Both the position numbers and the translations under genes were made by a program. The notes under the pieces are model-generated. The model saw nothing but the letters and a program-made list of their open reading frames with translations. It had not been told where the DNA came from and searched no databases. Below, piece by piece: positions 12,222-29,524 of a DNA stretch of 64,000 nucleotides; position 1 is the first letter of the stretch, and every line of letters begins with the position of its first letter. Origin of the DNA: Thermocoleostomius sinensis A174 (GTDB lineage Bacteria; Cyanobacteriota; Cyanobacteriia; Elainellales; Elainellaceae); NCBI RefSeq assembly GCF_026802175.1, contig NZ_CP113797.1, positions 5,123,026 through 5,187,025 of the forward strand, given 5' to 3'.

Positions 12222-13927
12222 GTTTCCGTCCCCTTGCGGGGAAAGGGTTATATCGAACCCGTCCCCGCGCCGCCCTCCGCGCCCTCGCCGCGACCTCGCC
12301 GTTTCCGTCCCCTTGCGGGGAAAGGGTTATATCGAACGTAGGGGTTTCGGGTTACATAGGGTACGCCATTCATTCTGTTTCCGTCCCCTTGCGGGGAAAG
12401 GGTTATATCGAACGTGACGTTTAACGTACCCTTCTTGAGTGGTACACAGGAAGTTTCCGTCCCCTTGCGGGGAAAGGGTTATATCGAACCCATGATTCCC
12501 AACGTCGAGGGAGAGCGGAAAGGCATTGTTTCCGTCCCCTTGCGGGGAAAGGGTTATATCGAACGCTCAACAATCTGCGTTCTGGGTCAGCCATACCAGG
12601 GTTTCCGTCCCCTTGCGGGGAAAGGGTTATATCGAACGCCACTGGATGGGGTGTTTAGCCTGGGGCTATTTTTGTTTCCGTCCCCTTGCGGGGAAAGGGT
12701 TATATCGAACGAGGCATCGATCGCTAAGAAGCCCCGGAAAGCTAGCCAGAGTTTCCGTCCCCTTGCGGGGAAAGGGTTATATCGAACTATCAAAACTGAG
12801 CCATAATAAGAACATACCGGAACAGACGTTTCCGTCCCCTTGCGGGGAAAGGGTTATATCGAACGCCCCCGGTTGTTGTAGCCGATGATCTCTGTATTCG
12901 GTTCGTTTCCGTCCCCTTGCGGGGAAAGGGTTATATCGAACCAGCGGCAGTACAGCAGCAGCAGGCGATCACTCTCACAGTTTCCGTCCCCTTGCGGGGA
13001 AAGGGTTATATCGAACAGAAATCGCCCTCGGTAGGTACATCAATTCCTGAGTTGTTTCCGTCCCCTTGCGGGGAAAGGGTTATATCGAACCACCCTCAAA
13101 TGTTGACGCCAGAAGGCTACACAGTTCGGAAGCGTTTCCGTCCCCTTGCGGGGAAAGGGTTATATCGAACCTCGTGTGGCGTTTCGGGCTGCGTCGTTTG
13201 GGGCGTCTTGTTTCCGTCCCCTTGCGGGGAAAGGGTTATATCGAACGTAGATCAAGTAACTAGAGTAAAAACCGGTAAAGCGTTTCCGTCCCCTTGCGGG
13301 GAAAGGGTTATATCGAACTTTGGTATAACCTTAATTGTGGTTGCGCTAACGGCAACATGTTTCCGTCCCCTTGCGGGGAAAGGGTTATATCGAACAAGCC
13401 TTGACGGGCATCAGGGTATGTCCAGCCAGAGTAGTTTCCGTCCCCTTGCGGGGAAAGGGTTATATCGAACTTTAATTCAACCAAAATTCGATCGTCCATC
13501 AGCCGTAAGTTTCCGTCCCCTTGCGGGGAAAGGGTTATATCGAACAGAGAGGCCTTCAAACTTTTTATACCAAGAATCACCAAGTTTCCGTCCCCTTGCG
13601 GGGAAAGGGTTATATCGAACCAAAACCTCTAATGGCGCTCCCCCTGCTGAGATCACAGACGTTTCCGTCCCCTTGCGGGGAAAGGGTTATATCGAACTCA
13701 CTGGGAAACAGGGCTTTACCCGCATCGTCATAATGTCGTTTCCGTCCCCTTGCGGGGAAAGGGTTATATCGAACAATTATTTAAGATCGACTGCCAATGA
13801 AACCTCATTTGGTTTCCGTCCCCTTGCGGGGAAAGGGTTATATCGAACTTGAAATGCAAGAATGTCTTTCGATTCATCCTTAAACACCGTGTTTCCGTCC
13901 CCTTGCGGGGAAAGGGTTATATCGAAC
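12222..13927 (-). CRISPR. CRISPR array 1: 23 repeats, 22 spacers
   Basis: 23 copies of a 37-base repeat, essentially invariant, with spacers of 35-43 bases. Repeat starts on the plus strand include 12222, 12301, 12377, 12453, 12528, 12601, 12674 and so on to 13891. I read the array on the minus strand, where each repeat starts GTTCGATATAACCCTTT and ends with the 20-base core CCCCGCAAGGGGACGGAAAC. The core holds a CCCC-GCAA-GGGG hairpin and an 8-base ACGGAAAC that would be the crRNA 5' tag. Supporting orientation: the GAAAC 3' end is usual for cyanobacterial repeats, and cas1-cas2 lie upstream on the same strand. The wide spacer length range fits type III. Confidence 0.97.
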
Positions 13928-14663: not shown

Positions 14664-15674
14664 TCATTTCAACCCAAACCCCTCATAATCCAAATTTTGA
14701 CTCACCAAACATCGCCCCACCCATCGCGCCTGCTCCAACATAATCTGGCTCACACTGAGACGACGATCCTGCGGTGGATAGAGCAACACCTTCGTCAACT
14801 GCCGCTCCAACTCCGCCAAAAACAGCTTCTTCCCCAACGCCCCCAGCCAAATGCCCTCCCCATCCGGCGCAGGCTCAAAATCCTCCGGTGAAATCGTCCC
14901 CGCCTGAATCATGGCAATCACCGCCTGATCCACCACCACCGGACGAAACTCCTCCATCAAATCCAGCACCAAATTTGGACGATACGGCTCGATCGCATGG
15001 AAAAACCCAATATACGGATCAAACCCCGCCTGCACACAGACCACAAACATCCGACTTGCCAACACCCCATAACCCCAACTCAGCAACGCATTAATCGGGT
15101 CACGGGGCGGCTGACGGTTTCTCCCTGTAAACCCCCAATCCTCCGGAAACCAATGGCGCAACGCCTGATAATAGACCCGCGCACAAATCCCCTCTATCCC
15201 CATAATCGCATTGCGCGTAATCGGAGTATCAATCCGCTGAAACCCCGTCGTATACGCCGCCAATAAGTCCACCACCTCCGTCAGTTCCGTAATCCTACCC
15301 TGAGTATCCCGATTCCGTCGCTGCAACAACGCCCGCTGATTTCGCACTTTACTCAACATCAACGATCGCGCCAGATCCAACCCCAACGGCGTATCCACAC
15401 AGCGATATTGCGCCAACCGAATTTCAGGATTCGTCGCAAAACTGCCCTGAAGCCGACCGCGAAACTGCCCATTTTGCTTCAAAAACAGCGTTTCCACCCC
15501 CTGATCTAGCAAATGGGACAGCACCACACTGCTCAGTTGCACCCCCGGCATCACCACCACCAGGTCTAGTTCCGCCATCCGCAAACAGCGAGATTGATTA
15601 TTTTGCTTAACCGTCAGATTATTGTTTTGATACTGAACCGTCGTTCCCGGTTCCGTTAAATATAGCGTCGTCAT
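14664..15674 (-). CDS. cas1: CRISPR integrase Cas1
   Basis: 336 codons, the usual stand-alone length, with no reverse-transcriptase or Cas4 fusion. Catalytic residues are visible as Glu161 (GIEGICARVYY), His226 (FFHAIEPYRPN) and Asp238 (VLDLMEEFRP). It integrates new spacers at the leader end of the adjacent array together with Cas2. The order cas1, cas2, leader, array on one strand suggests one adaptation module, divergent from the rightward effector operon. The cas1-cas2 gap contains TACCCAT/TACCCACT-like simple repeats. Confidence 0.96.
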   Translation of the reverse strand: MTTLYLTEPGTTVQYQNNNLTVKQNNQSRCLRMAELDLVVVMPGVQLSSVVLSHLLDQGVETLFLKQNGQFRGRLQGSFATNPEIRLAQYRCVDTPLGLDLARSLMLSKVRNQRALLQRRNRDTQGRITELTEVVDLLAAYTTGFQRIDTPITRNAIMGIEGICARVYYQALRHWFPEDWGFTGRNRQPPRDPINALLSWGYGVLASRMFVVCVQAGFDPYIGFFHAIEPYRPNLVLDLMEEFRPVVVDQAVIAMIQAGTISPEDFEPAPDGEGIWLGALGKKLFLAELERQLTKVLLYPPQDRRLSVSQIMLEQARWVGRCLVSQNLDYEGFGLK

Positions 15675-16744: not shown

Positions 16745-17422
16745 ATGACCCCGATCGCCCCTCTCTTACAAGTCAACCCCGAAACCGTCGAATTCCTGCA
16801 ACAGCAATTCCAATCCCTCACCACCAGCTTCAACATTTATGTAGCATTGCTCAGTGCTGTCAGTGTAATTTTCATTGGATTTGCCGCCTGGTTCTTCAAA
16901 CGCACCCTCAGCGAAGCCAAACAAGAAGTTGAACAACTCGTCAGAGCCGAAGTCAAACGCGAGATCGCCCGGAATGTTAGGCAGCGCATCGAGTTTTTAG
17001 AACAAGTTTTAGAACGAGAAGAAGTCCCCAGCCTTGTCAGCGTCGATTACGTCCTGCAAACCACCACCGGAACCCTCCCCAAAGAATACAACCTGCTCCG
17101 CGCCCGCTTTCCTCGCCTCAAATTACAGAAACTAGACAGCCGTAAACTCACTGGAGATGTGGTAGTGCTGGATCTGGTGAACTACCAGCCTAAAGGCAGC
17201 GAACTCACCGACGATGAACTGGAGCAAATCCTGCAACGCACGATCGACAAACTCTCTTCCGACTCCGTTCTGTCCATTTATATTCGAGGAAGATACAAGG
17301 CGATCGAAACATTGGGGCAAAAGATTAACTACTACACTTCCACTAATGTCCCCACTCAGCTTCTCGGCAACGTGATTAATTCTGCCTACGTCGCTCATAC
17401 CTTGCGCGGCGAAGATGAATAA
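16745..17422 (+). CDS. Membrane-anchored coiled-coil protein with small alpha/beta domain, candidate type III effector
   Basis: 225 codons, no family recognised. One membrane helix at about 29-52 is followed by a charged coiled coil (about 54-92) and an alpha/beta domain at 96-218. The domain has strands around DYVLQTT, DVVVLDLV and VLSIYIRG and ends YYTSTNVPTQLLGNVINSAY. The domain order and its last strand-helix unit resemble those of the interrupted gene at 29962-30930, where the equivalent end reads FSIATNPSRFKSEFNSLI. The topology suggests a cytoplasmic domain tethered to the membrane, as in some ligand-activated defence effectors. It lies 254 bp upstream of cas10. A membrane role is likely; the effector role is inference. 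Confidence 0.6.
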   Translation: MTPIAPLLQVNPETVEFLQQQFQSLTTSFNIYVALLSAVSVIFIGFAAWFFKRTLSEAKQEVEQLVRAEVKREIARNVRQRIEFLEQVLEREEVPSLVSVDYVLQTTTGTLPKEYNLLRARFPRLKLQKLDSRKLTGDVVVLDLVNYQPKGSELTDDELEQILQRTIDKLSSDSVLSIYIRGRYKAIETLGQKINYYTSTNVPTQLLGNVINSAYVAHTLRGEDE

Positions 17423-17676: not shown

Positions 17677-20043
17677 ATGGTTGATTCCCAAAAACAATTA
17701 ACAGTGGCGATCGCCTGGTGTTTGGCATGGGGCGATCGGCGAGAACCGCAATTATCTCAGGATTTACTTCAGCAGTTTCGAGAAGCGATCGATACAGATC
17801 GAGAACCACCTGAGCCGTTAAATCCATACTTTGAACGGGCTAAAAGCCTACAGTCTTTAACAGCAGAGTTTCCCAAAAGTCTTCAGAACCTGAGTCCTGA
17901 ACTGGTTCACCTTTGGCAGCAAAAAACGAAAATTGGACTGGTTTATGGCGGTGCAACAAAGATTAAACAATACGTCTTTGAAGAGGCAAAACTACAGGAC
18001 ATTCGTGGAGCCTCTGCATTGCTCGATCGGATTAATCTGTATGATATACCTGAGTTCTTTGGTAGCTCCGAAGGGACTCGTTCTGCTCGACAATGGCTCG
18101 AAAACAATGATTCAACTCTAGCAAAAGCTCTGATTCCAGAACTACTCATTTACTACAAGGGCGGTAGTTTTCTGGCTTTCTGTCCCGCTGCCCTAATTGA
18201 TTCCCTTGCAGATGCGATCGAAAAACGCTACACCCAGGAAACCCTGACTGCAAATTCCTGTGTTGTGGGGGATGTCTTTCATCCTCTAGAAATTTACCTG
18301 GGATTACTCCAGAATCCGATTGAAAAAACGCTATGGCTTGATTCCCTGCAAAGCCATTTAACCAATCCAGCCGTTCAAGCTTATTTCGGCATTCAAGCAA
18401 ACGATCCACCAGACAAAATTGAAGCAGCCTTTAAGAGCCGTAAAAACTTCAATGAACTGGTGGCAAAGTTAGCCAATCAATTCAATCAACGCCGGAGCGG
18501 ATGCGATCGCCCTTCCCTTGAACAGAACAACACTCCTGATCAAAAAACTCGCCCCAGTCGTCGTTATCCGCCCATGTTTGAAACGCATCCTTATTTAGTT
18601 CGGGATGCTGGCGATCGACGATCTTCAGTAGCAACCGTCACTGATTTTCCTGAACCAATCCAATTCTCAGAGACATTGGCACGTAAACGATGGGTTGGAC
18701 AAATTACTAAACAGGAATCTGCGGAAGAACGAACTTGGTTTAGGAAAGCTGGTCTGGATTGGGATGCTGGAGAAGTTGAAAGTTGGGTGAACAAGTTTGA
18801 GCAATATCTGCGTGATGAGAACCTTGTTCAGAAATATGATTCAGATCTGAATTTGTTTGATGAGAACCAGAAAATCAGAGACATTCACAAACGAGAAGCC
18901 CGATCGCTCCGAGAGATTGCCGCAGCCGATAAAAATGGATTTATTGCCTACATCTATGCAGATGGAAATAACATGGGGCAATACATTCGTGATCACATCG
19001 CCACACCCGCCCAATACGAACAATTCAGTAACGATATCTTCCACGCCACCGAGAAATCAGTTTATTACGCGATCGCCCATCATCTTAAACCGTATCACTA
19101 CACACCTGACTCCTGCTCTAACCGCACAAATAAAGACAAAGTTTGGATTCATCCCTTCGAGATTGTCACCATCGGTGGAGATGATGTGTTGCTGATTGTT
19201 CCAGCGAATAAGGCTCTGAATATTGCAAAAACGATCGGCGATCGTTTTGAGGAGATTTTAATTGAGACGGGACGATATGCGATCGAACCATCCCAGAAAC
19301 CGACTCCTCATTCTGAAATACATCGTTATAATCCCCAAGAAGCACCTGAGTCCAAATGTTGCCTCAGCATTTCCAGTAGCGTACTCATCACCGCAGACAA
19401 TACCCCCATTTATTACGCCGATAAGCTCGTTTCGCAACTGCTGAAATCCGCCAAGAAAAAAGCCAAAGATTTAAAAGAGAAGGGGTATCACGGTGGCACA
19501 GTAGACTTCCTGACCCTGAAAGCCGTCACCATGATTTCCTCCAACATCAACGCCTTTCGCGATCAAGGATTGACGGTTAAATTGCCAGAGCGACAACAAG
19601 AACTCAAACTTTATGCCGCTCCCTACACGCTGCATGAATTGGGTGGATTGCTTGAAACCGCCAAAGCTGTCAAAAAATCCGGCTTCCCCCAATCGCAGCT
19701 TTATCAGATTCGTAGCCTTTTGGAACGGGGCAAACGCACTGCCATTTTGAACTATCGCTACTTCAAAGTTCGATTAGCAGCCGACAAACAACATTTTCTG
19801 GATAACGATTTTGAAAAAGCCTGGTGTGGAGCCAAAACCAACAACGGAAATCTGGCTCCGTGGATTCAAGCCATTCAAAAAGACGGTAAAACCACTTACG
19901 AAACCCTGTGGCGAGAACTGGTAGAACTATTGCCCTTCGTTGATGATCCTGCCAATGACGCTCCCAATGATAACGATCCCGACGATTCAAAGCGATCGGA
20001 CAAACAAACGACTGCCCCATCTTCCCAGGAGGCGAACCAATGA
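17677..20043 (+). CDS. cas10: Cas10, type III effector large subunit, HD-less with intact GGDD
   Basis: 788 codons. The N-terminal segment VYGGATKIKQYVFEEAKLQD near residue 89, then IRGASALLDRIN, is typical of Cmr2/Csx11-like Cas10. The first palm motif is YADGNNMG near 426. The cyclase motif GGDD is at 500-503 in EIVTIGGDDVLLIV. A helical C-terminus ends in an acidic Asn/Asp-rich tail. No HD nuclease motif is visible at the N-terminus, as reported for type III-D. The intact GGDD predicts synthesis of cyclic oligoadenylate from ATP when the complex binds target RNA. Its stop overlaps the next gene (ATGA). Confidence 0.95.
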   Translation: MVDSQKQLTVAIAWCLAWGDRREPQLSQDLLQQFREAIDTDREPPEPLNPYFERAKSLQSLTAEFPKSLQNLSPELVHLWQQKTKIGLVYGGATKIKQYVFEEAKLQDIRGASALLDRINLYDIPEFFGSSEGTRSARQWLENNDSTLAKALIPELLIYYKGGSFLAFCPAALIDSLADAIEKRYTQETLTANSCVVGDVFHPLEIYLGLLQNPIEKTLWLDSLQSHLTNPAVQAYFGIQANDPPDKIEAAFKSRKNFNELVAKLANQFNQRRSGCDRPSLEQNNTPDQKTRPSRRYPPMFETHPYLVRDAGDRRSSVATVTDFPEPIQFSETLARKRWVGQITKQESAEERTWFRKAGLDWDAGEVESWVNKFEQYLRDENLVQKYDSDLNLFDENQKIRDIHKREARSLREIAAADKNGFIAYIYADGNNMGQYIRDHIATPAQYEQFSNDIFHATEKSVYYAIAHHLKPYHYTPDSCSNRTNKDKVWIHPFEIVTIGGDDVLLIVPANKALNIAKTIGDRFEEILIETGRYAIEPSQKPTPHSEIHRYNPQEAPESKCCLSISSSVLITADNTPIYYADKLVSQLLKSAKKKAKDLKEKGYHGGTVDFLTLKAVTMISSNINAFRDQGLTVKLPERQQELKLYAAPYTLHELGGLLETAKAVKKSGFPQSQLYQIRSLLERGKRTAILNYRYFKVRLAADKQHFLDNDFEKAWCGAKTNNGNLAPWIQAIQKDGKTTYETLWRELVELLPFVDDPANDAPNDNDPDDSKRSDKQTTAPSSQEANQ

Positions 20044-20801
20044 TTCAGCTTGCCTCCCTTAACCAATCCTTTCAGCCATCTACAACCCTCCCTCTAACCG
20101 CCATCATTGACACCGCCCTCTGCGTCGGAGCAGGCGGCTCATCCGGTTCCCTGTCGGACAAACCCATCCTCAAACGGGCAGACGGTAAACTGATAATTCC
20201 CGCATCCCAACTGAAGGGACGACTGCGCCATGAATGCGAAAAGATTGCCAGGGCATTGGGCTGGGCAATTTGTGAATCTCCAGTGGCAGAAACCATGTGC
20301 CCCCAACGGGCTGGATTAACAGGCAATTTTCAGCATGAACATTACGAAATAGGCGATCGTAACCCTGATGGTTCCCCACGCCATCACTGCCTGATCTGCC
20401 AACTGTTCGGGAATCCGTCTTTACCCGCTAGACTTCAATTCAGCGATCTGATCTGCACCGAAGATCCCGACAACACTCCAGAAGTGCTGCGTCCCGGTGT
20501 CACCATCAACCGTCGTCGTCGCACCGCAGAGGAAAAAAAACTGTACTTCCTCGAAACCTCTCCCGCAAACGCCCAGCTTCCCTTTACAGGGGAAATCACT
20601 TTGCTCCCAGGCACCCCCTATTTCGCCCAAGCCCTGATTTTGGCTGGACTGAAACACATTCACGCCCTTGGTGGTAGTAAATCAGCCGGACTGGGGTGGT
20701 TACAGTGGGAATCTTCTGTATTCAAGCATCCTGAAATCAATGATGACATCTGGGAATTCCTCGCCGCTGCACCCTCTCCACCTTCAGGAGGTGAACCATG
20801 A
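20040..20801 (+). CDS. cas7: Cas7-type RAMP (Csm3-like backbone subunit)
   Basis: 253 codons. RAMP features are PASQLKGRLRHECEKIA near residue 54, a CLICQLFG Cys pair, and the C-terminal Gly-rich loop GGSKSAGLGWL. Asp40 in LSDKPILK aligns with the catalytic Asp of Csm3 (IGxxDxPV), so it probably cuts target RNA. Cas7 proteins form the helical backbone along the crRNA. It overlaps cas10 by 4 bp and csx10 by 4 bp, which indicates translational coupling. The order Cas7, Cas5 (Csx10), Cas11-like matches the fused protein I recall from type III-Dv of Synechocystis. Confidence 0.9.
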   Translation: MIQLASLNQSFQPSTTLPLTAIIDTALCVGAGGSSGSLSDKPILKRADGKLIIPASQLKGRLRHECEKIARALGWAICESPVAETMCPQRAGLTGNFQHEHYEIGDRNPDGSPRHHCLICQLFGNPSLPARLQFSDLICTEDPDNTPEVLRPGVTINRRRRTAEEKKLYFLETSPANAQLPFTGEITLLPGTPYFAQALILAGLKHIHALGGSKSAGLGWLQWESSVFKHPEINDDIWEFLAAAPSPPSGGEP

Positions 20802-22048
20802 AACGCATTCACCTCACCATTACAGCAGAAACTCCCCTCGCCATCGGTCAACGCAAACCCGGAGCATCCGTCAGCGAAGCAATGGACTACATCCCCGGAA
20901 CTGTGATTCGCGGGGCGATCGCTGCTCATATCCTCAATCAAACCTCTGACTCTCCCGCCGATGGAGACGACTTCCACACCCTATTTCTCAACGACAATGC
21001 CGCCGTTTTCCAAAACGCCTATCCCGCCGTTCTGAAGCTGAGTAGTGACCAATATGATGTCAGTCAAGGCGAGGTCAAAGTTCTACCTGCCACAGCCCTC
21101 AGTTCTAAAACCAATAGCGGCTTCCAGCCCAAAGCCGGAGTATTCGATGCCCTCATCGACAGCTTTTGCGCCAGAGAACATGGGCATTTTTATGAACCCA
21201 ATGACGTAAACGGCGATCGAGTGGAGCCATTCAAAGGGTTTTACAGCCAGCATCAAGGTTCCTACTACGCCCATTCTGTCAACCAGCGACTTCTGACGCG
21301 AGTTGGCATTAACCGTCGTCGGGCAACCGCCCAGGAAGAAATTCTCTACAGCATTAAAGTGTTGGATGAGTTCCAAGGGAAAGCGCAGGACGGCACACCT
21401 CAACCGACCGTATACAAAAGCGCGATCCTGATTAGCGACGATAATCTGGCAACAGCGTTGCAGACTTTCCTGGAGCAGAATAGCCCACACTTTCGGCTTG
21501 GCGGTTCCACCTCGCGCGGACTGGGAAAAGTTCATATTGAGACGCAAATTGAAGATATCAAAGATATAGATGAGCGATCGAATGTCATTCAAGCTCGAAT
21601 AGATATATTCAATGAAAAGTTAAACGAAAGATGGAGTTTATGGAATGTATTTAATGATTCCAATTCCACAAAGGGACGAACTTTTTTTACTCTCGATCTC
21701 CAATCCGATGCCATCCTATCAGAACACTGGCAACGAACAACCGTGATTTCAGAAGCGATGCTCAATCAATTTACTAATATCCACGATCCAGACCTTCAAC
21801 TCCACATGGCATACAGCAGCTATGACTATCGATCGGGCTGGAATGCCGCATGGGGATTGCAAAAGGATGTAGAGCTAATGACCAATATGGGCAGTGTCTA
21901 TCTGTTCAGCACCCAGCAACCCCAAGCCTGGTATGAGCCGCTAGCTTGGTTAGAAAGTAGAGGAGTCGGCGATCGGGTTTCAGAGGGGTTTGGTCAGATT
22001 AGGGTTTGTGATGAATTTCATTTAGTGTTTCGAGAAGGAGCAGAATAG
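20798..22048 (+). CDS. csx10: Csx10, the Cas5-like RAMP of type III-D
   Basis: 416 codons. It begins KRIHLTITAETPLAIGQRKP, has IPGTVIRGAIAAHIL (RAMP start region) and RVGINRRRATAQEEILY. Two Gly-rich loops follow: GGSTSRGLGKV midway, and GVGDRVSEGFGQIRVCDEFH at the end, the latter typical of Csx10. Csx10 marks subtype III-D and caps the crRNA 5' tag in the Cas5 position. The ATG overlaps the cas7 stop, with a strong AGGAGGTGA ribosome binding site upstream. The next gene starts 2 bp after its stop. Confidence 0.93.
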   Translation: MKRIHLTITAETPLAIGQRKPGASVSEAMDYIPGTVIRGAIAAHILNQTSDSPADGDDFHTLFLNDNAAVFQNAYPAVLKLSSDQYDVSQGEVKVLPATALSSKTNSGFQPKAGVFDALIDSFCAREHGHFYEPNDVNGDRVEPFKGFYSQHQGSYYAHSVNQRLLTRVGINRRRATAQEEILYSIKVLDEFQGKAQDGTPQPTVYKSAILISDDNLATALQTFLEQNSPHFRLGGSTSRGLGKVHIETQIEDIKDIDERSNVIQARIDIFNEKLNERWSLWNVFNDSNSTKGRTFFTLDLQSDAILSEHWQRTTVISEAMLNQFTNIHDPDLQLHMAYSSYDYRSGWNAAWGLQKDVELMTNMGSVYLFSTQQPQAWYEPLAWLESRGVGDRVSEGFGQIRVCDEFHLVFREGAE

Positions 22049-22050
22049 AA

Positions 22051-22680
22051 GTGTCATACTTATCCAGTATTAGCATCAAAGAACAGTTGGCTTTGAGAAT
22101 TGCTAGTGAAACCCAAAAACAGATGGACTCTATCCTGGAAAGGATTCAACAAATTGCGAAAGAATTCAAAATTGCCGAAAAAGATAAGCGATCGCCTTTC
22201 CGAAATGTTTTAGCAGTTGCGGTTGAATCCACTGCCTCACTCGAAATCATTAAAAACTATATTCGCTATCAGGTCGGACGTGGAAATAACTCTAGCCCTA
22301 TCTGGATCTTAAAGCAGAATAAAAAGCTATTTGCAGAAGCATTAGTCGAAGCTCTTGATGCACTTAGACAAGACGCAGAAGAGATTCTAAAGCGCATTGA
22401 AGAGGCTTGTGAAGAAGCTCAAAAGCAGAATAAATCGAACGAAGTAGAAGCAGAACAAGAAACACTACTCAAGTATTTGCAGAATTCAAAAAATCAAGCA
22501 ATGCTTCAGCGCGACTTGCATCTGGAATTAGCAAGGCTGTATTTAGGTTATCTGGCTCGTGAACATACTGCACTTGTAGGAGAGCAAAAAGAAAATCCTA
22601 AGACAGAAACTCATGATGAAAAACAAAAGGCATCAAAAACAGTTCATGGTACTCCTAATCAACCAACAATATCCAAATAA
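22051..22680 (+). CDS. Helical protein, probable Cas11-like small subunit
   Basis: 209 codons from a GTG 2 bp after csx10. It is almost wholly alpha-helical: ERIQQIAKEFKIAEKDKRS, FRNVLAVAVESTASLEIIK, a long charged helix, then LHLELARLYLGYLAREHTAL and a polar tail of about 35 residues. No nuclease or nucleotide-binding motif is seen. Small subunits of type III complexes (Csm2, Cmr5, Cas11) are helical and form the inner filament. Its position directly after Cas7 and Csx10 is where the Cas11 segment lies in the fused III-Dv protein. The assignment rests on position and helical content, not on a recognised motif. Confidence 0.6.
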   Translation: MSYLSSISIKEQLALRIASETQKQMDSILERIQQIAKEFKIAEKDKRSPFRNVLAVAVESTASLEIIKNYIRYQVGRGNNSSPIWILKQNKKLFAEALVEALDALRQDAEEILKRIEEACEEAQKQNKSNEVEAEQETLLKYLQNSKNQAMLQRDLHLELARLYLGYLAREHTALVGEQKENPKTETHDEKQKASKTVHGTPNQPTISK

Positions 22681-22713
22681 ATACTGATATTGTTCTAAAA
22701 AGGTTTTATTGCT

Positions 22714-23289
22714 ATGTCATCTCTTCAATCCCCTTTAAAGCTTTCTCTAAAAGAATTTTTAGATCTCCCAGAAACCAAGCCAGTCCGTGAATACATTGAT
22801 GGGCAGATCCATCAGAAACCCATGCCCAAGGGAAAACATAGCCGACTCCAAACCTATTTAGTGGCTGAAATCAATCGGATGAGCGAATCCCAACGGCTTG
22901 CCTGTGCATTTGCAGAACTGCGCTGCACCTTTGGCGGACGATCGATCGTCCCTGATATCACCGTCTTTTCATGGCAAAGAATTCCATTAGATGCAGAGGG
23001 GGAAATCGAAAATACCTTTGAAATTCCGCCAGACTGGACGATCGAAATTCTTTCCCCAGAACAAAGCTCGATTCGCGTCATTGACAATATTTTGTTTTGC
23101 CTGAATCACGGCACTGAACTCGGTTGGCTGATTGATCCCCAGGAGAGATTAGTCATCGTTTTTCGTCCAGCGCAACAGCCAGAAATCAAGCGAGATCAGG
23201 ATATCCTACCTGTTCTCAATCCCCTAAGCGACCTTAAATTATCAGTTGCAACGATATTCAGTTGGTTGAACCTAAGAAATGCAAATTAA
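22714..23289 (+). CDS. Uma2-family endonuclease inside the type III-D operon
   Basis: 191 codons. Features are YIDGQIHQKPMPKGKHSRLQ, LRCTFGGRSIVPDITVFSW (the PD of the active site) and DWTIEILSPEQSS (ExxxP region), ending with a helix. It is closely related to the Uma2 protein at 31761-32324 (shared LRCTF-GRSIVPD and APDW/PPDW-IEILSP). It is co-oriented with the cas genes, 33 bp after the Cas11-like gene and 114 bp before the next RAMP. It could be cargo or a co-opted nuclease; no function is shown by sequence. Confidence 0.87.
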   Translation: MSSLQSPLKLSLKEFLDLPETKPVREYIDGQIHQKPMPKGKHSRLQTYLVAEINRMSESQRLACAFAELRCTFGGRSIVPDITVFSWQRIPLDAEGEIENTFEIPPDWTIEILSPEQSSIRVIDNILFCLNHGTELGWLIDPQERLVIVFRPAQQPEIKRDQDILPVLNPLSDLKLSVATIFSWLNLRNAN

Positions 23290-23303
23290 ATCAACTGTCA
23301 TTC

Positions 23304-23335
23304 TTGTGGGGTGGGCATCCTGCCCGCCAGTCAAT
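23304..23335 (-). repeat. Interspersed hairpin repeat, copy 2
   Basis: Reverse-complement copy of the unit at 17578-17610, with GGGCATCCTGCCC as its core. It fills most of the gap between the Uma2 gene and the next cas7 gene. Confidence 0.75.
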
Positions 23336-23403
23336 CCAGCAAAACGATCGCACAGGGTATTGAATCCAACATCTTAAACTAGTTCACAGGTATAAACAGA
23401 CCC

Positions 23404-24312
23404 ATGTTTGATACGTTCAAAAATCGCTTAGAACTTTCAGGAACCCTCTGGACAGTGACAGCACTCCGCATCAGCCAAGGACGCTCCCTGGAACCGATCG
23501 GCTCTGATTTGCCCGTCGTCAAAGATGCGCTGGGTCATCCCCTGATTCCCGGTTCGAGCTTTAAGGGAGCCATGCGATCGCGCCTGGAGAGTTTTCTGCG
23601 CGGGATAGACGACAACCTCGCTGCCAATCCGGCGATCGAAGAGGAGTGGGCGATTCCATCAGATGTGATGAAACAACTCAAAGAAGACCATCAAAATGAC
23701 GCAGATTTAACCAGAACAATCATCGGCAGAACGGATCTAACTTCGCTGCTATTTGGCTCTCCCTGGATGGCGAGTAAGTTCCAGGTGCGAGATTTAACTG
23801 TTATACGAGATTCCTGGTTCGGACAATACCAGGAGCGAGACGGGGTTTCCATCGATCGAGATACTGAAACCGCCGCAGATGGCAAACTTTATGACTTTCA
23901 GGTTGTACCTGCGGGGACACCCTTTACGTTTAAGGCGATCGTCGAAAATGCCGAGGAGTGGGAACTGGGACTGCTAATGATTGGCTTACACCAGTTTGAA
24001 ACTGAGCAAATTCCCCTGGGAGGTGGGCGATCGAGGGGATTGGGGGTGGTGAAGCTGGAGATCAAAGAGATGCGTTGGATAGATGTACGGCGATCGGATG
24101 AGCCAGACAGGTGCGATCCAGCCAAAATGCAGGATTACCTCAGACATTTGATAATGGAACAGGAAACACCTGTCGGCGAAGTTGTTTCTCCTGAACAACG
24201 AAAAGAGTGGGCAAGCCAGTTTATTAGCAGCCTTCAAGAACACATCGATCGACTCTCTCAGGCAAAGACTACAATCGAAGCAGCGCAGTCTTCCAGCAAT
24301 CAAGCAAAGTAG
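23404..24312 (+). CDS. cas7: Cas7-type RAMP, Csx7/SSO1426-like
   Basis: 302 codons. The N-terminus carries PIGSDLPVVKDALG, whose Asp35 corresponds to the catalytic Asp of Csm3 (IGxxDxPVxKD). IPGSSFKGAMRSRLESFL follows, then LTSLLFGSPWMASKFQVRDL, RDGVSIDRDTETA and the Gly-rich loop LGGGRSRGLGVVKL. All are typical of Csm3/Csx7 RAMPs. It would be a backbone subunit with RNase activity against bound target RNA. The C-terminal ~70 residues form a charged helical extension. The next gene starts 10 bp after the stop. Confidence 0.92.
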   Translation: MFDTFKNRLELSGTLWTVTALRISQGRSLEPIGSDLPVVKDALGHPLIPGSSFKGAMRSRLESFLRGIDDNLAANPAIEEEWAIPSDVMKQLKEDHQNDADLTRTIIGRTDLTSLLFGSPWMASKFQVRDLTVIRDSWFGQYQERDGVSIDRDTETAADGKLYDFQVVPAGTPFTFKAIVENAEEWELGLLMIGLHQFETEQIPLGGGRSRGLGVVKLEIKEMRWIDVRRSDEPDRCDPAKMQDYLRHLIMEQETPVGEVVSPEQRKEWASQFISSLQEHIDRLSQAKTTIEAAQSSSNQAK

Positions 24313-24322
24313 GGAGAGAGTA

Positions 24323-24946
24323 ATGATGTCTTTTAGTCAGTACAAATCGATCGGGGCTGTTGTTAAAGAATTTCAAGTTCGCTATACCGAGCTTAATTTT
24401 GTAGGTGAAGTCCCTTTTGTAATTCCTGACTATTTTCGTAATGATTTAGAAATTGTGATGCGCGAAGGAGTCGTTAATAATTCTGAGTTTGCTATCTGCG
24501 AAAACCTGATCTATCCTCTCCTCAAAGAAGTTTGGAAGAGTTATCTAAAGCACTTCGTCCTGTGGAGTCATCAACTTCTGACCTGTGATGACAATCTATC
24601 CGGCTTTCCAGAATACATCCTGGCAAGGCGATCGCCCCTCGGAAAGGTTGTGTTCGATCAACCCTACTTACTGCTCGTCGAAGCCAAACAGGACAAGTTT
24701 GAAGAGGGATGGGGACAGTGTTTAGCTGAGATGATTGCAGCCCAGCGTCTAAATGAAAATCCTCAACTGGTAATTTTTGGAATTGTTTCCAACGGGTCAA
24801 TTTGGCAGTTTGGCAAATTACATGCTGAATCGTTTATACGCCATGTTGAACCATATACAATTTATGAGCTTGATACGTTGTTTGCAGCAGTCAACTTTGT
24901 TTTTCAACAGTGTGAAATGCAGCTTGATCAGTTGGTTACAGCCTAG
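24323..24946 (+). CDS. PD-(D/E)XK nuclease-like protein embedded in the cas operon
   Basis: 207 codons from the ATG ATG pair at 24323, preceded by an AGGGAGAGAG ribosome binding site. The arrangement fits a restriction-like nuclease: Glu60 in a helix (ENLIYPLLKEVW), GFPEYILA with Glu98 at the usual Asp position, and Glu120-Ala-Lys122 in YLLLVEAKQDKFEEGWGQC. It resembles the N-terminal nuclease module of type I restriction subunits and related stand-alone proteins common in cyanobacteria. No CARF or other sensor domain is present. Tight spacing (10 bp before, 31 bp after) shows co-expression with Cas7 subunits. DNA or RNA as substrate is unknown. Confidence 0.7.
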   Translation: MMSFSQYKSIGAVVKEFQVRYTELNFVGEVPFVIPDYFRNDLEIVMREGVVNNSEFAICENLIYPLLKEVWKSYLKHFVLWSHQLLTCDDNLSGFPEYILARRSPLGKVVFDQPYLLLVEAKQDKFEEGWGQCLAEMIAAQRLNENPQLVIFGIVSNGSIWQFGKLHAESFIRHVEPYTIYELDTLFAAVNFVFQQCEMQLDQLVTA

Positions 24947-24965
24947 AGAAATGCCCTATGTATAG

Positions 24966-25655
<690 letters not shown>

Positions 25656-25658
25656 GCA

Positions 25659-26633
25659 ATGCACAAACGATTAGTTAACCACTGCACGATCGAACTTTCC
25701 CTAATTCCCGATGGACCAATTCTCATCAAGTCCGGCAAAGAAGGGGCTGACCCCACCAAACCCGATATGGAATTTGTGGAAACTTATCATCAAGACGGAC
25801 GAACCATTTATCTGCCAGGAAGTTCTTTGAAGGGAGCCATTCGCGCCCATGCAGAGCGGATCGTTCGATCGATTGGAAGTGACAGCAAACCTACTAATCC
25901 AAACCTGCTTTGGGCAAATGATCCCTTAAACGACAACTATGATTACTTAAAAGATCGAAAAGATAAACAAAAAAAGTTATCTCCTCCTGAAATTCATCTT
26001 CACTCTTCATTTACTGATCGACTGTTTGGAAACACTTCGATCGCCAGTCGTCTCCGGATTGAAGATGCCTATCCCACCGATCGCACTCAACTCAAATTAG
26101 AAGAACGAAACGGGGTGGCGATCGATCGGGTGTTTGGCTCAGTCGCAGTGGGGCCATTTAATTATCAGGTTTGTACGGGAGGAGAATTTAAGACCAAGAT
26201 TCACCTCAAGAACTTTACGCTGGCGCAATTGGGCTTAATTGGTTTGGTGCTGCGGGATTTGAATGATGGCTGGTTTGGTTTAGGATTTACCAAATCGCGG
26301 GGGCTGGGAACGGTTAGGGTGCAATACGAACAGGCTATTGTGCAGTATCCAGCCTGCGTTTTGAATAGCGAGAATCAGATTAGTCTACTTGGTCATTCAA
26401 ATCTATCCTGGAATCACACAACGCTGCTGGGGGTTGGAGCTTTTCTGGAAGAGTCCGAGCGCGATCGATATGGTTTCCCGAAGGACGATCGGCTGGATAC
26501 CCCTGTGTCTGCTGAAGCAATGCCTCTAGGCTTCGGAGTACAGTTAACCTGGCATGGCAATACGGTGACAGATTTATTTGAACGTAGCGTCAAGGCATGG
26601 AAAAAGGTAGTTATGTCTGGAGCCACATCATGA
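25659..26633 (+). CDS. cas7: Cas7-type RAMP (Csm3-like)
   Basis: 324 codons. LPGSSLKGAIRAHAERIV is the RAMP signature; TDRLFGNTSIASRLRIEDAY, RNGVAIDRVFG and the Gly-rich loop GFTKSRGLGTV follow. Asp36 in TKPDMEFV lies where Csm3 has its catalytic Asp. A C-terminal region of about 80 residues (VGAFLEESERDRYGFPKDDR onward) is extra relative to small Csm3 proteins. It probably occupies a backbone position and cleaves target RNA. It is separated from the previous RAMP by the nuclease and nucleotidyltransferase genes, and its stop overlaps the next start. Confidence 0.9.
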   Translation: MHKRLVNHCTIELSLIPDGPILIKSGKEGADPTKPDMEFVETYHQDGRTIYLPGSSLKGAIRAHAERIVRSIGSDSKPTNPNLLWANDPLNDNYDYLKDRKDKQKKLSPPEIHLHSSFTDRLFGNTSIASRLRIEDAYPTDRTQLKLEERNGVAIDRVFGSVAVGPFNYQVCTGGEFKTKIHLKNFTLAQLGLIGLVLRDLNDGWFGLGFTKSRGLGTVRVQYEQAIVQYPACVLNSENQISLLGHSNLSWNHTTLLGVGAFLEESERDRYGFPKDDRLDTPVSAEAMPLGFGVQLTWHGNTVTDLFERSVKAWKKVVMSGATS

Positions 26634-27103
26634 CCGCCTATGTTGGATATCGCCAAGCAACCGTTGAGCAATTGAGGGAATTAGTCGAACATCCTGCGAT
26701 CGCCATTCCCAAAACCTATTATTTTCTGCGCTGGTTCGATCGAGTGAGTGGCATTCAGACAGAGTTATCGAAAGAGTTTCCTAGTCCCGAAGGGCAATTA
26801 TTTAATGCCAGTCTGGAATTACGGTGGAAACGACAGGGAACTGAATACGACATTCTCCTTCTGAGTAAAGACGAACCTAAATCGGATTTGAAATTTACGC
26901 AATTAGGAAAAGATTGGGACTGGTGCGATCGTCCTGCGATTTTCCATAACAGTGATGAAACTAAATTTCCTAAAGGATTTGCATATCTAGACGGGGAAGA
27001 AAAGTTCAATCCAAAGAATTTTCCAATCAAGCAGCGATATTTCTTCAATTCTCAAACTGCCACCGTTCACTTTATCGCCCTCACCCTCGATCGCCATGTC
27101 TAG
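26630..27103 (+). CDS. Csx19-like type III-D accessory subunit
   Basis: 157 codons from the ATG at 26630 that overlaps the cas7 stop (ATGA); a start at 26597 would add unconserved residues inside the upstream gene. Features are YYFLRWFDRVSGI, LFNASLELRWKRQG and FNSQTATVHFIALTLD. Size, place between two Cas7 genes and general composition fit Csx19 (TIGR03984), which is found in III-D loci. I recall that in type III-Dv it contacts the Cas7 filament. No catalytic motif is seen. The name rests on resemblance and context. Confidence 0.6.
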   Translation: MTAYVGYRQATVEQLRELVEHPAIAIPKTYYFLRWFDRVSGIQTELSKEFPSPEGQLFNASLELRWKRQGTEYDILLLSKDEPKSDLKFTQLGKDWDWCDRPAIFHNSDETKFPKGFAYLDGEEKFNPKNFPIKQRYFFNSQTATVHFIALTLDRHV

Positions 27104-28190
27104 CAATCCTCCCCCCCCAAAACCATCGCGCCCTAACCTTGCAAATTCCTCGCCTCGCAGACGAAACAATTCCGAACAGGCATTACCCGCCAAACCCTAT
27201 GAACTGATTCCGTTTCCCAAACAGCCGCCTTGCCTCAAACGTCCTGCTGGACACGACAAGTACCTGCCCGATCGCCTGCATGGAACCCTATTTCTGACGC
27301 TAACCGTCCAGACCGCTTTGCACGTTTCAACGGGAGTGGTGGTCATGGGAAGTGATATTGGCAATAATCGCATTCCCCTGATTAAAACAATGGTGCAAAA
27401 CCCGGATCAGAAACTTACGATTCAGGGAAGTTCGCTAAAGGGCTGTGTGCGATCGGTCTATGAGGCAGTAACAAGGAGTTGCATTTGTAAGACGAAGGCA
27501 AAAAAATTACAAATTCCAGACAAGTATTCCGAGTGTACACCTGAGCCGAAGAAAGGGAGGTTGGATGTTTGTCCTGCCTGTCAAATTTTCGGGGCATTGA
27601 ATTGGCAAGGTTTAATTGAATTTCAGGATGCAGTTTGCCAGAGTACGGGTTTTGCAACAGGGTTTATGCCGTCCTTGTATCGTCCCCGTCCTGATCAACG
27701 ACGCGCTTACTTTAGACAAGGTAAAGTGGCTGGACGAAAGTTTTACTATCACACCATCAGGGCGATCGACAGGGGACAAAATCAGGGAATTCCGGTACAG
27801 ACAGCAGCGAAAGAATACATATTCACCACAGCGTTGCACTTCAAGAATTTAACAGCAGAAGAGCTAGGAACCCTATTTATCGTTCTCGGACAAGATCCCC
27901 AATATCCGATCGCCCTCAAAGTAGGAGGTGGTAAACCGATCGGCATGGGAACGATGACAGTACAGGTTACGGCGATCGATTGCATAAAGGGACAGAACTT
28001 GCGCGATCGATATGTTGCTTATCAGTCTCCAGATTCGACTCAATTGACGGGCGACGTTTTACAGCAATTGATGCAACAACATATTCAAACGGCTCATGCG
28101 AGTGCGTTCGTCGAAAAACCTCAGCTAGATGCGTTGCTTGAAGTTCTACGATATCCAACCGATCGTGAACCGCCGACGGGAATGTATTGA
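27096..28190 (+). CDS. cas7: Cas7-type RAMP with Cys-rich insertion
   Basis: 364 codons. A Pro/Arg-rich N-terminal tail of about 55 residues precedes LHGTLFLTLTVQTALHVSTG, the RAMP signature QGSSLKGCVRSVYEAVTR and the Gly-rich loop VGGGKPIGMGTM. Cys-x-Cys (CICK) and CPACQIFG frame a probable zinc site. Where the other three Cas7 proteins have Asp, this one reads GNNRIPLIK, so it may lack RNase activity. It is the last RAMP of the operon and overlaps the Csx19-like gene by 8 bp. It could match the TIGR03986-type RAMP, but I am not certain. Confidence 0.85.
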   Translation: MSSNPPPPKPSRPNLANSSPRRRNNSEQALPAKPYELIPFPKQPPCLKRPAGHDKYLPDRLHGTLFLTLTVQTALHVSTGVVVMGSDIGNNRIPLIKTMVQNPDQKLTIQGSSLKGCVRSVYEAVTRSCICKTKAKKLQIPDKYSECTPEPKKGRLDVCPACQIFGALNWQGLIEFQDAVCQSTGFATGFMPSLYRPRPDQRRAYFRQGKVAGRKFYYHTIRAIDRGQNQGIPVQTAAKEYIFTTALHFKNLTAEELGTLFIVLGQDPQYPIALKVGGGKPIGMGTMTVQVTAIDCIKGQNLRDRYVAYQSPDSTQLTGDVLQQLMQQHIQTAHASAFVEKPQLDALLEVLRYPTDREPPTGMY

Positions 28191-28246
28191 GGCACAGGGA
28201 GTTTGGGAGTTAGGATCAGATTGGTCGATGCTGGAGAAATGCACCC

Positions 28247-28864
28247 ATGATACAAACCATAGACACGCTTATTCAAAATTCTCTAAGCTTCGAGCAGTTC
28301 TTGAACTATGAATTCTCCGATGAGGGACGCTACGAGCTAATCAACGGAAATATTGTGAGGATTTTAGCCACTCGACAGCATGACAACATCGCAGAATTTA
28401 TCGCGGATACGTTCAAAGCCGAAGTCAAACGACGAAACTTGAACTATCGCGTTTCCGGTCGAGTTATGATTCGCACCGTTACTCCAGAAGGCAAAGAGCA
28501 GGGACGGTTTCCGGATGTCAGTGTGGTCGATCGCACTTTATGGGATGCTAATCTTTCCGCCTATACTGCCTTCACCGATCCGCCTCAAATTGCGATTGAG
28601 GTCGTGTCCTCCAACTGGGAGGATGATTACATTGACAAACTCGATGAATACCAACGGCTAGGCATTCCCGAATACTGGATCGTAGATTACCAAGCAGTCG
28701 GTAGCCGATCGCTCCTTGGTCATCCTAAAATTCCAACGATTTTCGTTTGCTTACTCGATCAGAGCGGACAATACCAGCTTCACCCCTATCGTGGCGATGA
28801 GCCGATCGAGTCACCCACATTTCCAGAACTATCCATAACTGCGAATCAGATATTTGAGGCTTAG
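28247..28864 (+). CDS. Uma2-family endonuclease
   Basis: 205 codons. Features are SFEQFLNYEFSDEGRYELIN then G, GRFPDVSVVD (active-site PD), PPQIAIEVVSSNWEDDYIDK (ExxS) and the common GIPEYWIVDY. It is 56 bp downstream of the last RAMP gene and its stop abuts the next ATG, so it is likely part of the same transcript. It is more distant from the 22714 and 31761 Uma2 proteins than those are from each other. Confidence 0.87.
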   Translation: MIQTIDTLIQNSLSFEQFLNYEFSDEGRYELINGNIVRILATRQHDNIAEFIADTFKAEVKRRNLNYRVSGRVMIRTVTPEGKEQGRFPDVSVVDRTLWDANLSAYTAFTDPPQIAIEVVSSNWEDDYIDKLDEYQRLGIPEYWIVDYQAVGSRSLLGHPKIPTIFVCLLDQSGQYQLHPYRGDEPIESPTFPELSITANQIFEA

Positions 28865-29524
28865 ATGATGTCATCCGATGTTGCTCAAGTTGGACTCACC
28901 GATGCTCAGTGGAACATGGCTCACCAGATTGCTGATCGGTTGGCGAAAGAGGACACTGATGTGAACGAACTGGGAAAAGTAATTGCCTATCTACGAACGG
29001 CAATCAATCAATACGGCTCAAATGCCGGATCGCAGTTTTTCAAGTATCTAAAGACTCTGGTTAAGAATGGCAACAGTATCGGGCACAGTAGCAAAACAAT
29101 TGGATACTATCGCAGTATTGACAAAGCCTGTAGTGACATTCTGCAAAAGGAAAATTTAGATGCTGAAGCGATACTCCAAATTTTGGGTTGGGCGGCACGG
29201 CTAATGCGCTATTACAAGGTTTCCCCGATCGGTGAAAATGCAGAACCCCAGGAAGAATCTGTTCCCTCTGCGGTGACAGAACGGCAAGCAGCGATCGAAG
29301 CCTTAATCCAAACACAAACCTTTGAAGTAGGGCAGATGATTGAGGCGCAAGTGAAGCAAAAACTGAAAGGAAATAAAGTTACCTATCTCATCGGAGATCT
29401 CTTGTTTACAGAGAAAGAAGCCAAGACATTCGATCGAATTCCTGCAAGTGGCAAGGTTAAGGTTGAAATTAAATCACTCAAAGAAGATGGCAGCATTAAC
29501 CACGTTAAGTTTGTACAATCCTAG
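28865..29524 (+). CDS. Unknown protein ending the type III-D operon
   Basis: 219 codons, family not recognised. Residues 1-118 are helical and contain a GSQFFKYLKTLVKNGN segment and ILGWAARLMRYYKVSPIG. After a polar linker, the C-terminal ~70 residues (FEVGQMIEAQVKQKLKGNKV onward, then KVKVEIKSLKEDG) look beta-rich, perhaps a small barrel. It starts immediately after the Uma2 stop. The helical half could be a second small-subunit (Cas11/Csm2-like) domain, and the barrel a nucleic-acid-binding module. Both are guesses from secondary structure. Confidence 0.65.
   Translation: MMSSDVAQVGLTDAQWNMAHQIADRLAKEDTDVNELGKVIAYLRTAINQYGSNAGSQFFKYLKTLVKNGNSIGHSSKTIGYYRSIDKACSDILQKENLDAEAILQILGWAARLMRYYKVSPIGENAEPQEESVPSAVTERQAAIEALIQTQTFEVGQMIEAQVKQKLKGNKVTYLIGDLLFTEKEAKTFDRIPASGKVKVEIKSLKEDGSINHVKFVQS

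Follow-up and report, generated by a model that had tools for sequence, protein, structure and literature searches.

How type III CRISPR systems whose Cas10 lacks an HD domain, those of subtype III-D above all, clear invading DNA is an unsettled question. In one passage of PMC11026444 most III-D Cas10 proteins are predicted to be without this domain, and a passage of a Synechocystis paper (PMC9676260) raises, as speculation, an ancillary RNase that would take its place or do the clearing. The window analysed here is a 64-kb stretch of DNA that is part of a 5.8-Mb contig. A recurrent nuclease gene of the effector operon, with no sensor domain detected and a predicted intact active site, is a concrete candidate for DNA clearance. 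A sequence-only reading had proposed that its product, termed P0001, may be an auxiliary nuclease that compensates for the missing HD domain of Cas10. We consider it most likely, with a probability of about 0.5, that P0001 is an optional accessory DNase, as predicted from its fold, of cyanobacterial type III systems that also has a life of its own.

The III-D operon and the predicted nuclease P0001

The type III-D effector operon spans 17677-29524, and cas1 and a CRISPR array are also found in the window. The features are as follows:

13282..13545 and around, strand not assigned: part of a CRISPR array with repeat GTTTCCGTCCCCTTGCGGGGAAAGGGTTATATCGAAC
14664..15674, minus strand: Cas1
16745..17422, plus strand: CRISPR-associated membrane protein (PADLOC Mem_02)
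17677..20043, plus strand: Cas10, without HD motif, GGDD at residue 500
20040..20801, plus strand: Csm3/Csx7-like Cas7 (7a)
20798..22048, plus strand: Csx10, the Cas5 of III-D (TIGR02674, 413 bits)
22051..22680, plus strand: Csm2/Cas11 (PADLOC)
22714..23289, plus strand: Uma2, accessory (PF05685, match at 7e-34)
23404..24312, plus strand: Csx7/Csm3 Cas7 (7b), upstream neighbour of P0001
24326..24946 (from 24323: 207 aa), plus strand: P0001, predicted stand-alone PD-(D/E)XK protein (PADLOC PDLC01472 PD_DExK, AlphaFold2 model)
24611..24613, plus strand: codon of E97, at the place of the 'PD' aspartate
24680..24688, plus strand: codons of E120-A121-K122, the (D/E)XK motif
24978..25655, plus strand: nucleotidyltransferase-like ORF, downstream neighbour of P0001 (weak NTP_transf_5/DUF6036/AbiEii matches, all below cut-offs)
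25659..26633, plus strand: Csm3 Cas7 (7c)
26597..27103, plus strand: Csx19 (PADLOC)
27096..28190, plus strand: Cas7-like RAMP (7d)
28247..28864, plus strand: second Uma2-like ORF (PADLOC PDC-S03, whose model fits the Uma2 at 22714 as well)
28865..29524, plus strand: Csx21

The open reading frame at 24323-24946 consists of 207 codons and a stop. The protein is likelier to be 206 aa long, starting at 24326, since aligned relatives begin at the second Met. Its earlier description as tightly packed between Cas7 genes is accurate on the upstream side, where the gene for 7b ends 10-13 nt before the start of P0001, but the downstream neighbour is the nucleotidyltransferase-like ORF and the next Cas7 is reached at 25659. 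This type of ORF recurs in type III operons (the window and loci L179, L165, L170, L173, L174 and L207) and lies directly 3' of the nuclease gene in two loci, the window and L179. The Mem_02 membrane protein encoded upstream of cas10 is a possible separate effector of the same III-D system.

P0001 matched the PADLOC model PDLC01472 (PD_DExK) over residues 54-199 with 152 bits and an E-value of 2e-45. All 60 members of family alignment A2 matched PADLOC PD_DExK and no other PADLOC model, and P0001 is a member of this CRISPR-associated PD-(D/E)XK family already listed in PADLOC. Profile searches of Pfam, NCBIfam and PHROGs assigned P0001 to no family, PF05685 (Uma2) gave no match, and a sequence search of the PDB resulted in chance matches only. 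The absence of a sensor domain, as proposed earlier, was confirmed to the extent that none was detected by Pfam, NCBIfam, PHROGs or PADLOC, and no CARF family was present among the profile matches.

Structure prediction with AlphaFold2, based on 60 sequences, resulted in a model of P0001 with a pLDDT of 92.2 and a pTM of 0.91. The best Foldseek chains for this model were rescored by VIA-align. The closest nuclease structure was BpuSI (3s1s; Z 13.4 over 145 residues at 3.0 A), followed by DrdV (7lo5/7lvv; Z 12.0) and an HsdR of V. vulnificus (3h1t; Z 10.5), with a further HsdR, 2w00, at Z 6.2. Scores below that of the V. vulnificus HsdR were obtained for TT1808 (Z 8.3), the DUF820 protein 3ot2 (7.4), NucC (7.0-5.9) and Cas4 (5.5). 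The top rows with both programs, in VIA-align above any nuclease, were mitochondrial large-subunit ribosomal proteins (Z 14-16.2), matched through chains 5 and s over about 193 residues and covering model residues 1-199; these chains are presumably mL37 and mL65. We take them as a non-catalytic relative of the predicted P0001 fold, which may hint at a possible kinship between an enzyme and a ribosomal protein.

The conserved polar core of the family alignment comprises E60, E/D97, E120, K122 and Q132 and, together with the model and the structure matches, upholds the PD-(D/E)XK-like nuclease fold that had been read from the sequence. The EAK motif is at 120-122 as claimed, but the Glu of GFPEY had been numbered 98, whereas the motif starts at residue 94 and the Glu is residue 97. 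Conservation was followed in a close group, defined as the 80 sequences above 342.5 bits of the family profile with the window included, and in a next group of 71 members at 200-342.5 bits, 69 of which were aligned. Residue 97 is Glu in 80/80 close-group members, Asp in 63/69 of the next group and Asp in all 15 distant members. E97, E120 and K122 are kept together in 79/80 of the close group, and residue 120 is changed in 6/69 aligned members of the next group. We conclude that P0001 is a predicted single-domain PD-(D/E)XK nuclease of the HsdR/type IIG kind whose active site, judged from model and alignment, is intact. Glu97, where PD-(D/E)XK enzymes usually have Asp, is a clade mark of the close group and could alter metal use. 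Nearly all named relatives of P0001 are cyanobacteria, and we regard the contig as cyanobacterial on this basis.

Placement and inheritance of the gene in type III operons

The surroundings of the gene were evaluated in two separately sampled sets of regions, one centred on Csx10 and the other on the best family matches, in addition to 63 named loci. With kinship left in the neighbourhood counts, a CRISPR gene was found within 5 kb of 45/80 close-group members as compared to 3/71 next-group members (Fisher p 6.5e-13), and two of these three (L141 and L150) were divergent copies that occupy a III-D slot. Without the window the count is 44/79, composed of 6/17 members in the named loci and 38/62 in whole-genome loci, some species possibly being in both sets. 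In 40 of the 45 cases an effector-complex or CARF-type gene is among these neighbours, which are then not limited to Cas1, Cas2, Cas6 or Csx3. A CRISPR gene lies within 300 bp of 37 close-group members, and for 35 of them all such genes are on the same strand. For the remaining 35 of the 80, no CRISPR gene was found within 5 kb; in 21 of these cases the available sequence extends 5 kb or more to either side. The possibility that the family appears at random genomic sites, and only here next to cas genes, had been raised as counting against an auxiliary role. The sites outside cas loci do vary, but the association with cas genes recurs. Random insertion as the whole story was rejected on the overlap in place between Csx10 and the family and on the locus maps, and stays in the argument below as a rival.

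In a few loci the gene is near Cas1, Cas2 or Cas6 (L177, L196, L205, L212 and L214). As Cas4 is of the same superfamily, a Cas4-like nuclease that trims spacers during the adaptation step was considered. This is scarcely probable given that in III-D the gene sits among effector genes and away from Cas1-Cas2, that the likeness to Cas4 is weak and that the source genome already contains a separate Cas4-family match.

Among 46 canonical Csx10 loci the junction between 7b and 7c is visible in 38. The gene is present in 13 of these III-D operons and absent from 25, and is therefore not required in III-D. The survey of III-D loci for the same insertion that the sequence-only reading had suggested was carried out on the 35 Csx10-sampled operons, the window and two gene-fetched loci being left out: ten carry the gene, which lies between 7b and 7c in nine of them and ahead of 7b in L236. 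The slot is also seen in the spacing, the 7b-7c gap being 579-1346 nt in 12/13 operons with the gene and below 50 nt in 19/25 without it. Within III-A operons the gene was found between csx1 and csm1 (L208 and L227), between csm4 and csm5 (L219) and at L185, and it also occurs in operons with a longer Csx10 and a shorter Cas10 (L035, L037, L161, L175 and L207). One of the latter, L037:8001-9441, has two tandem nuclease copies (382 and 398 bits) that end a type III operon. A literature search of titles and abstract openings returned no description of the family in III-D, and we make no claim of its absence from print.

A distant subfamily (about 78-86 bits, Asp97) was observed in type III operons as well (L229:8303, L230:4862, L246:11066, L236:14233, L194:2215 and L161:3145). 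In canonical III-D operons its slot is between Cas11 and 7b, where a distant member was found in 4/35 operons, three of them without the close-group gene. The interval from Cas11 to 7b in III-D is also a recurrent site of Uma2-type genes (L046, L130, L131, L136, L138, L141, L244 and the window).

Inheritance was examined on trees. In a 149-member tree at least 14 changes are required to explain the label 'near cas', and on the Csx10 tree presence of the gene needs 11 changes, which is no fewer than chance (shuffled mean 11.5); the gene has therefore often been gained or lost. Given this scattered presence and the 25/38 operons that lack it, the gene is dispensable. Nevertheless, over 12 operons gene distances track Csx10 distances with a rho of 0.78 (permutation p 0.0004), the values for the core genes against Csx10 being 0.78 for 7b, 0.72 for 7c and 0.76 for Cas10. 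After removal of near kin and of one long branch, the rho between gene and Csx10 was 0.57 (p 0.03) and the correlation of the gene with 7b or 7c distances was not significant (p 0.18). The pattern suggests to us that the gene is co-inherited but has been lost repeatedly and to some extent exchanged among type III loci.

Insertion at a single junction and patchy presence could also be produced by a free-standing homing endonuclease spreading into the 7b/7c junction, and I-Ssp6803I is a cyanobacterial PD-(D/E)XK homing enzyme. Such an origin is very unlikely, since the distances track Csx10, the dN/dS ratios reported below are low and other slots are used in III-A operons, in III-D-like operons and outside cas loci.

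Presence of the gene and the HD domain of Cas10

In the Cas10 of the window no HD dipeptide is present in the first 330 residues, and a profile of the III-B HD region found no match in the source genome, so that as far as the sequence goes this Cas10 lacks the HD domain, as had been stated. An HD dipeptide is likewise missing from the first 330 residues of 37/44 canonical III-D Cas10 frames, a set in which one gene is counted twice and a few frames are cut at the N-terminus. The other seven have it at scattered positions, and in L139, which has the gene, it is at residue 39 in a stretch judged variable. Over the first 400 residues of Csm1, the dipeptide is absent at 26/30 loci and occurs as a stray one at the other four. 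Cmr2-type frames of at least 900 aa have KIWG(L/I)LHDP in 14/17 cases, two of the other three being incomplete. Among the matches listed, the HD-region profile matched 58/76 Cas10s of at least 900 aa, 1/41 of 700-899 aa, 0/32 Csm1 and 2/8 fragments.

A family member was found within 12 kb of 14/41 III-D-sized Cas10s, 6/32 Csm1 and 0/76 long Cas10s among the matches listed. This count by size class leaves out the eight Cas10 fragments below 700 aa, and with them locus L193, whose Cas10 runs off the contig. Re-sorting by HD match, with HD-matching fragments included, placed a member near 20/72 HD-less as compared to 1/61 HD-bearing Cas10 loci among the matches listed (Fisher p 1.9e-5); 18 Cas10s of at least 900 aa without an HD-profile match, none of which has the gene near, are excluded from this comparison. 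The Csm1 entries include three fragments whose HD status is unreadable, and fragment G240:C543 was left out. The 20 HD-less loci comprise the window itself, two divergent copies (L141 and L150) and two short ones (L148 and L132, the latter at a contig edge). A similar difference was obtained among the matches listed when the count was restricted to genomes with a family match in the typed list, with 20/39 HD-less and 1/17 HD-bearing (p 0.001), or to genomes with a close-group match, with 20/34 and 1/11 (p 0.005). Based on genome density, chance would place about 0.06 copies near the 72 HD-less loci, as compared to 0.05 for the 61 HD-bearing loci, a rough figure that assumes 66 copies and 5 Mb per genome. 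With 20 and 1 seen, HD-less loci are strongly enriched and HD-bearing loci hardly so.

The single HD-bearing case is L193 (genome G253), a III-B locus in which the gene precedes cmr1-cmr2 by 50 nt and cmr2 has FWQRKIQALLHDPP. A strict replacement of the HD domain was rejected on account of this locus. Presence of the HD domain is moreover a property of whole subtypes, so that HD status and subtype are confounded and the independent cases are few. The enrichment fits compensation for a missing HD domain without proving it. What stands of the auxiliary role proposed from the sequence is a nuclease-fold protein without a recognised sensor that recurs in III-D and favours HD-less loci; against it, or undecided, are L193, the III-D operons that lack the gene, the intact copies in eroded operons and the confounding with subtype. 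Natural controls are available in operons that differ in whether they carry the gene and in whether they have the HD domain.

The gene outside intact operons, its role and known systems

The family was found in at least 218/388 genomes of the class among the matches listed, often in several copies, and not all of these belong to CRISPR loci. The Asp97 group is nearly always away from CRISPR genes; its upstream neighbours in the three loci scanned were UPF0014, a PAP2-like protein and an inositol phosphatase. Close-group copies without cas genes adjoin an aminotransferase, NnrU, an oxidoreductase, a dehydrogenase and an epimerase, several of these copies thus having metabolic genes as neighbours, and in L036 and L042 the neighbouring ORFs have no family. 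In total ten upstream neighbours were scanned, eight with families and two without.

Four III-D operons have eroded to the point where the nuclease gene is alone, or nearly so, in being intact. L159, L181 and L184, all of one genus, are broken by different deletions flanking the gene, and L156 is the fourth. No Cas10 match was found in the eroded-operon genomes G136 and G289 among the matches listed. The dN/dS among L159, L181 and L184 is 0.10-0.14, part of this divergence predating the operon breaks, and 0.14 was obtained for the intact operons L136 and L131. Overall, values were 0.10-0.18 with or without adjacent cas genes, and 0.24 for one pair with four differences. Survival in eroded loci is partly a sampling effect, since the gene itself led to L181 and L184, while L156 and L159 were also reached from remnants of Csx10.

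These observations bring forward the possibility that the gene is a passenger, that is, a dispersed cyanobacterial nuclease gene, like Uma2, with a function of its own, which has lodged in tolerant operons and is merely co-transcribed. Its wide occurrence, the unrelated genes that adjoin copies away from cas loci, the intact gene in eroded operons and in genomes without a Cas10 match, and the similar dN/dS with or without cas genes all agree with this, as does co-occurrence with Uma2, which is present in 6/13 III-D operons with the nuclease as compared to 1/25 without (p 0.0035). A passenger would, however, have to account for 20 copies near HD-less loci where the rough expectation is a small fraction of one, for the same slot in 12/13 gene-bearing III-D operons, and for recurrence in III-A and III-D-like operons and once in III-B; the survival in eroded loci is in addition weakened by the sampling effect. 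We regard a passenger as the main rival reading, at well below even odds.

Activation by a second messenger made by Cas10, in the manner of NucC, would place the protein among CARF-less effectors. GGDD is kept in every Cas10 frame read (44/44 canonical III-D frames), and NucC, also without CARF, serves some type III loci according to a passage of PMC7854544. Models for Csx1/Csm6 (PDLC01032) and for the Card1 CARF domain found no match in the source genome while their controls matched; searches with PF09651 and PF09670 also gave no match, but neither did their controls, so that these two are uninformative. This type of activation is nonetheless improbable: the model is closer to type IIG and HsdR (Z 13.4-10.5) than to NucC, the gene is kept in G136 and G289, and a CARF gene is also present in 7/13 III-D operons with the nuclease, as compared to 6/25 without (p 0.08; four CARF clusters counted). 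Replacement of a CARF effector found no support in the same count, nuclease operons having CARF genes at least as often.

We return to the accessory DNase. The gene would serve type III operons mostly with an HD-less Cas10, those of III-D and III-A, and the predicted nuclease would cut DNA. It would be made together with the effector complex and add to or replace DNA cleavage during immunity. As no sensor was detected, its restraint may come from contact with the complex, from the choice of substrate or from a low activity, and not from a cyclic nucleotide. There is no strict dependence on the complex, because relatives are kept without cas genes. A further-reaching proposal, which we hold only tentatively and rate as doubtful, is that HD-less cyanobacterial type III systems have repeatedly handed DNA cleavage over to a separate HsdR-like nuclease that has no sensor, is encoded between cas7 genes and is licensed by the RNA-bound complex instead of a second messenger. 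If true, a complex-licensed nuclease would be a third way to arm type III systems, besides the HD domain and effectors activated by cyclic nucleotides.

Compared with known systems, P0001 has parts in common with several. Card1, Can1 and Can2 are PD-(D/E)XK nucleases that occur with type III loci; they have a CARF domain, whereas none was detected in P0001. NucC is CARF-less and of the same superfamily, but it scores below type IIG and HsdR in structural likeness to P0001, and kin of P0001 are kept in genomes without a Cas10 match among the matches listed. Uma2 (DUF820) shares fold class and operons with P0001 but is a different family; structure 1wdj (Z 8.3) we take to be a Uma2. The HD domain of Cas10 would supply DNA cleavage, but it has an unrelated fold and is part of Cas10; it is present in the long III-B Cmr2 of the same class. 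The nuclease domains of the type IIG enzymes BpuSI and DrdV and of HsdR have the fold in common with P0001 at 10-15% identity, yet P0001 stands alone, without helicase, methyltransferase or target-recognition part. PADLOC PDLC01472 'PD_DExK' describes the same family, but characterises it no further than by an association with CRISPR types I-VI; this generic label makes no mention of the slot in III-D, of the association with HD-less Cas10 or of the E97 clade.
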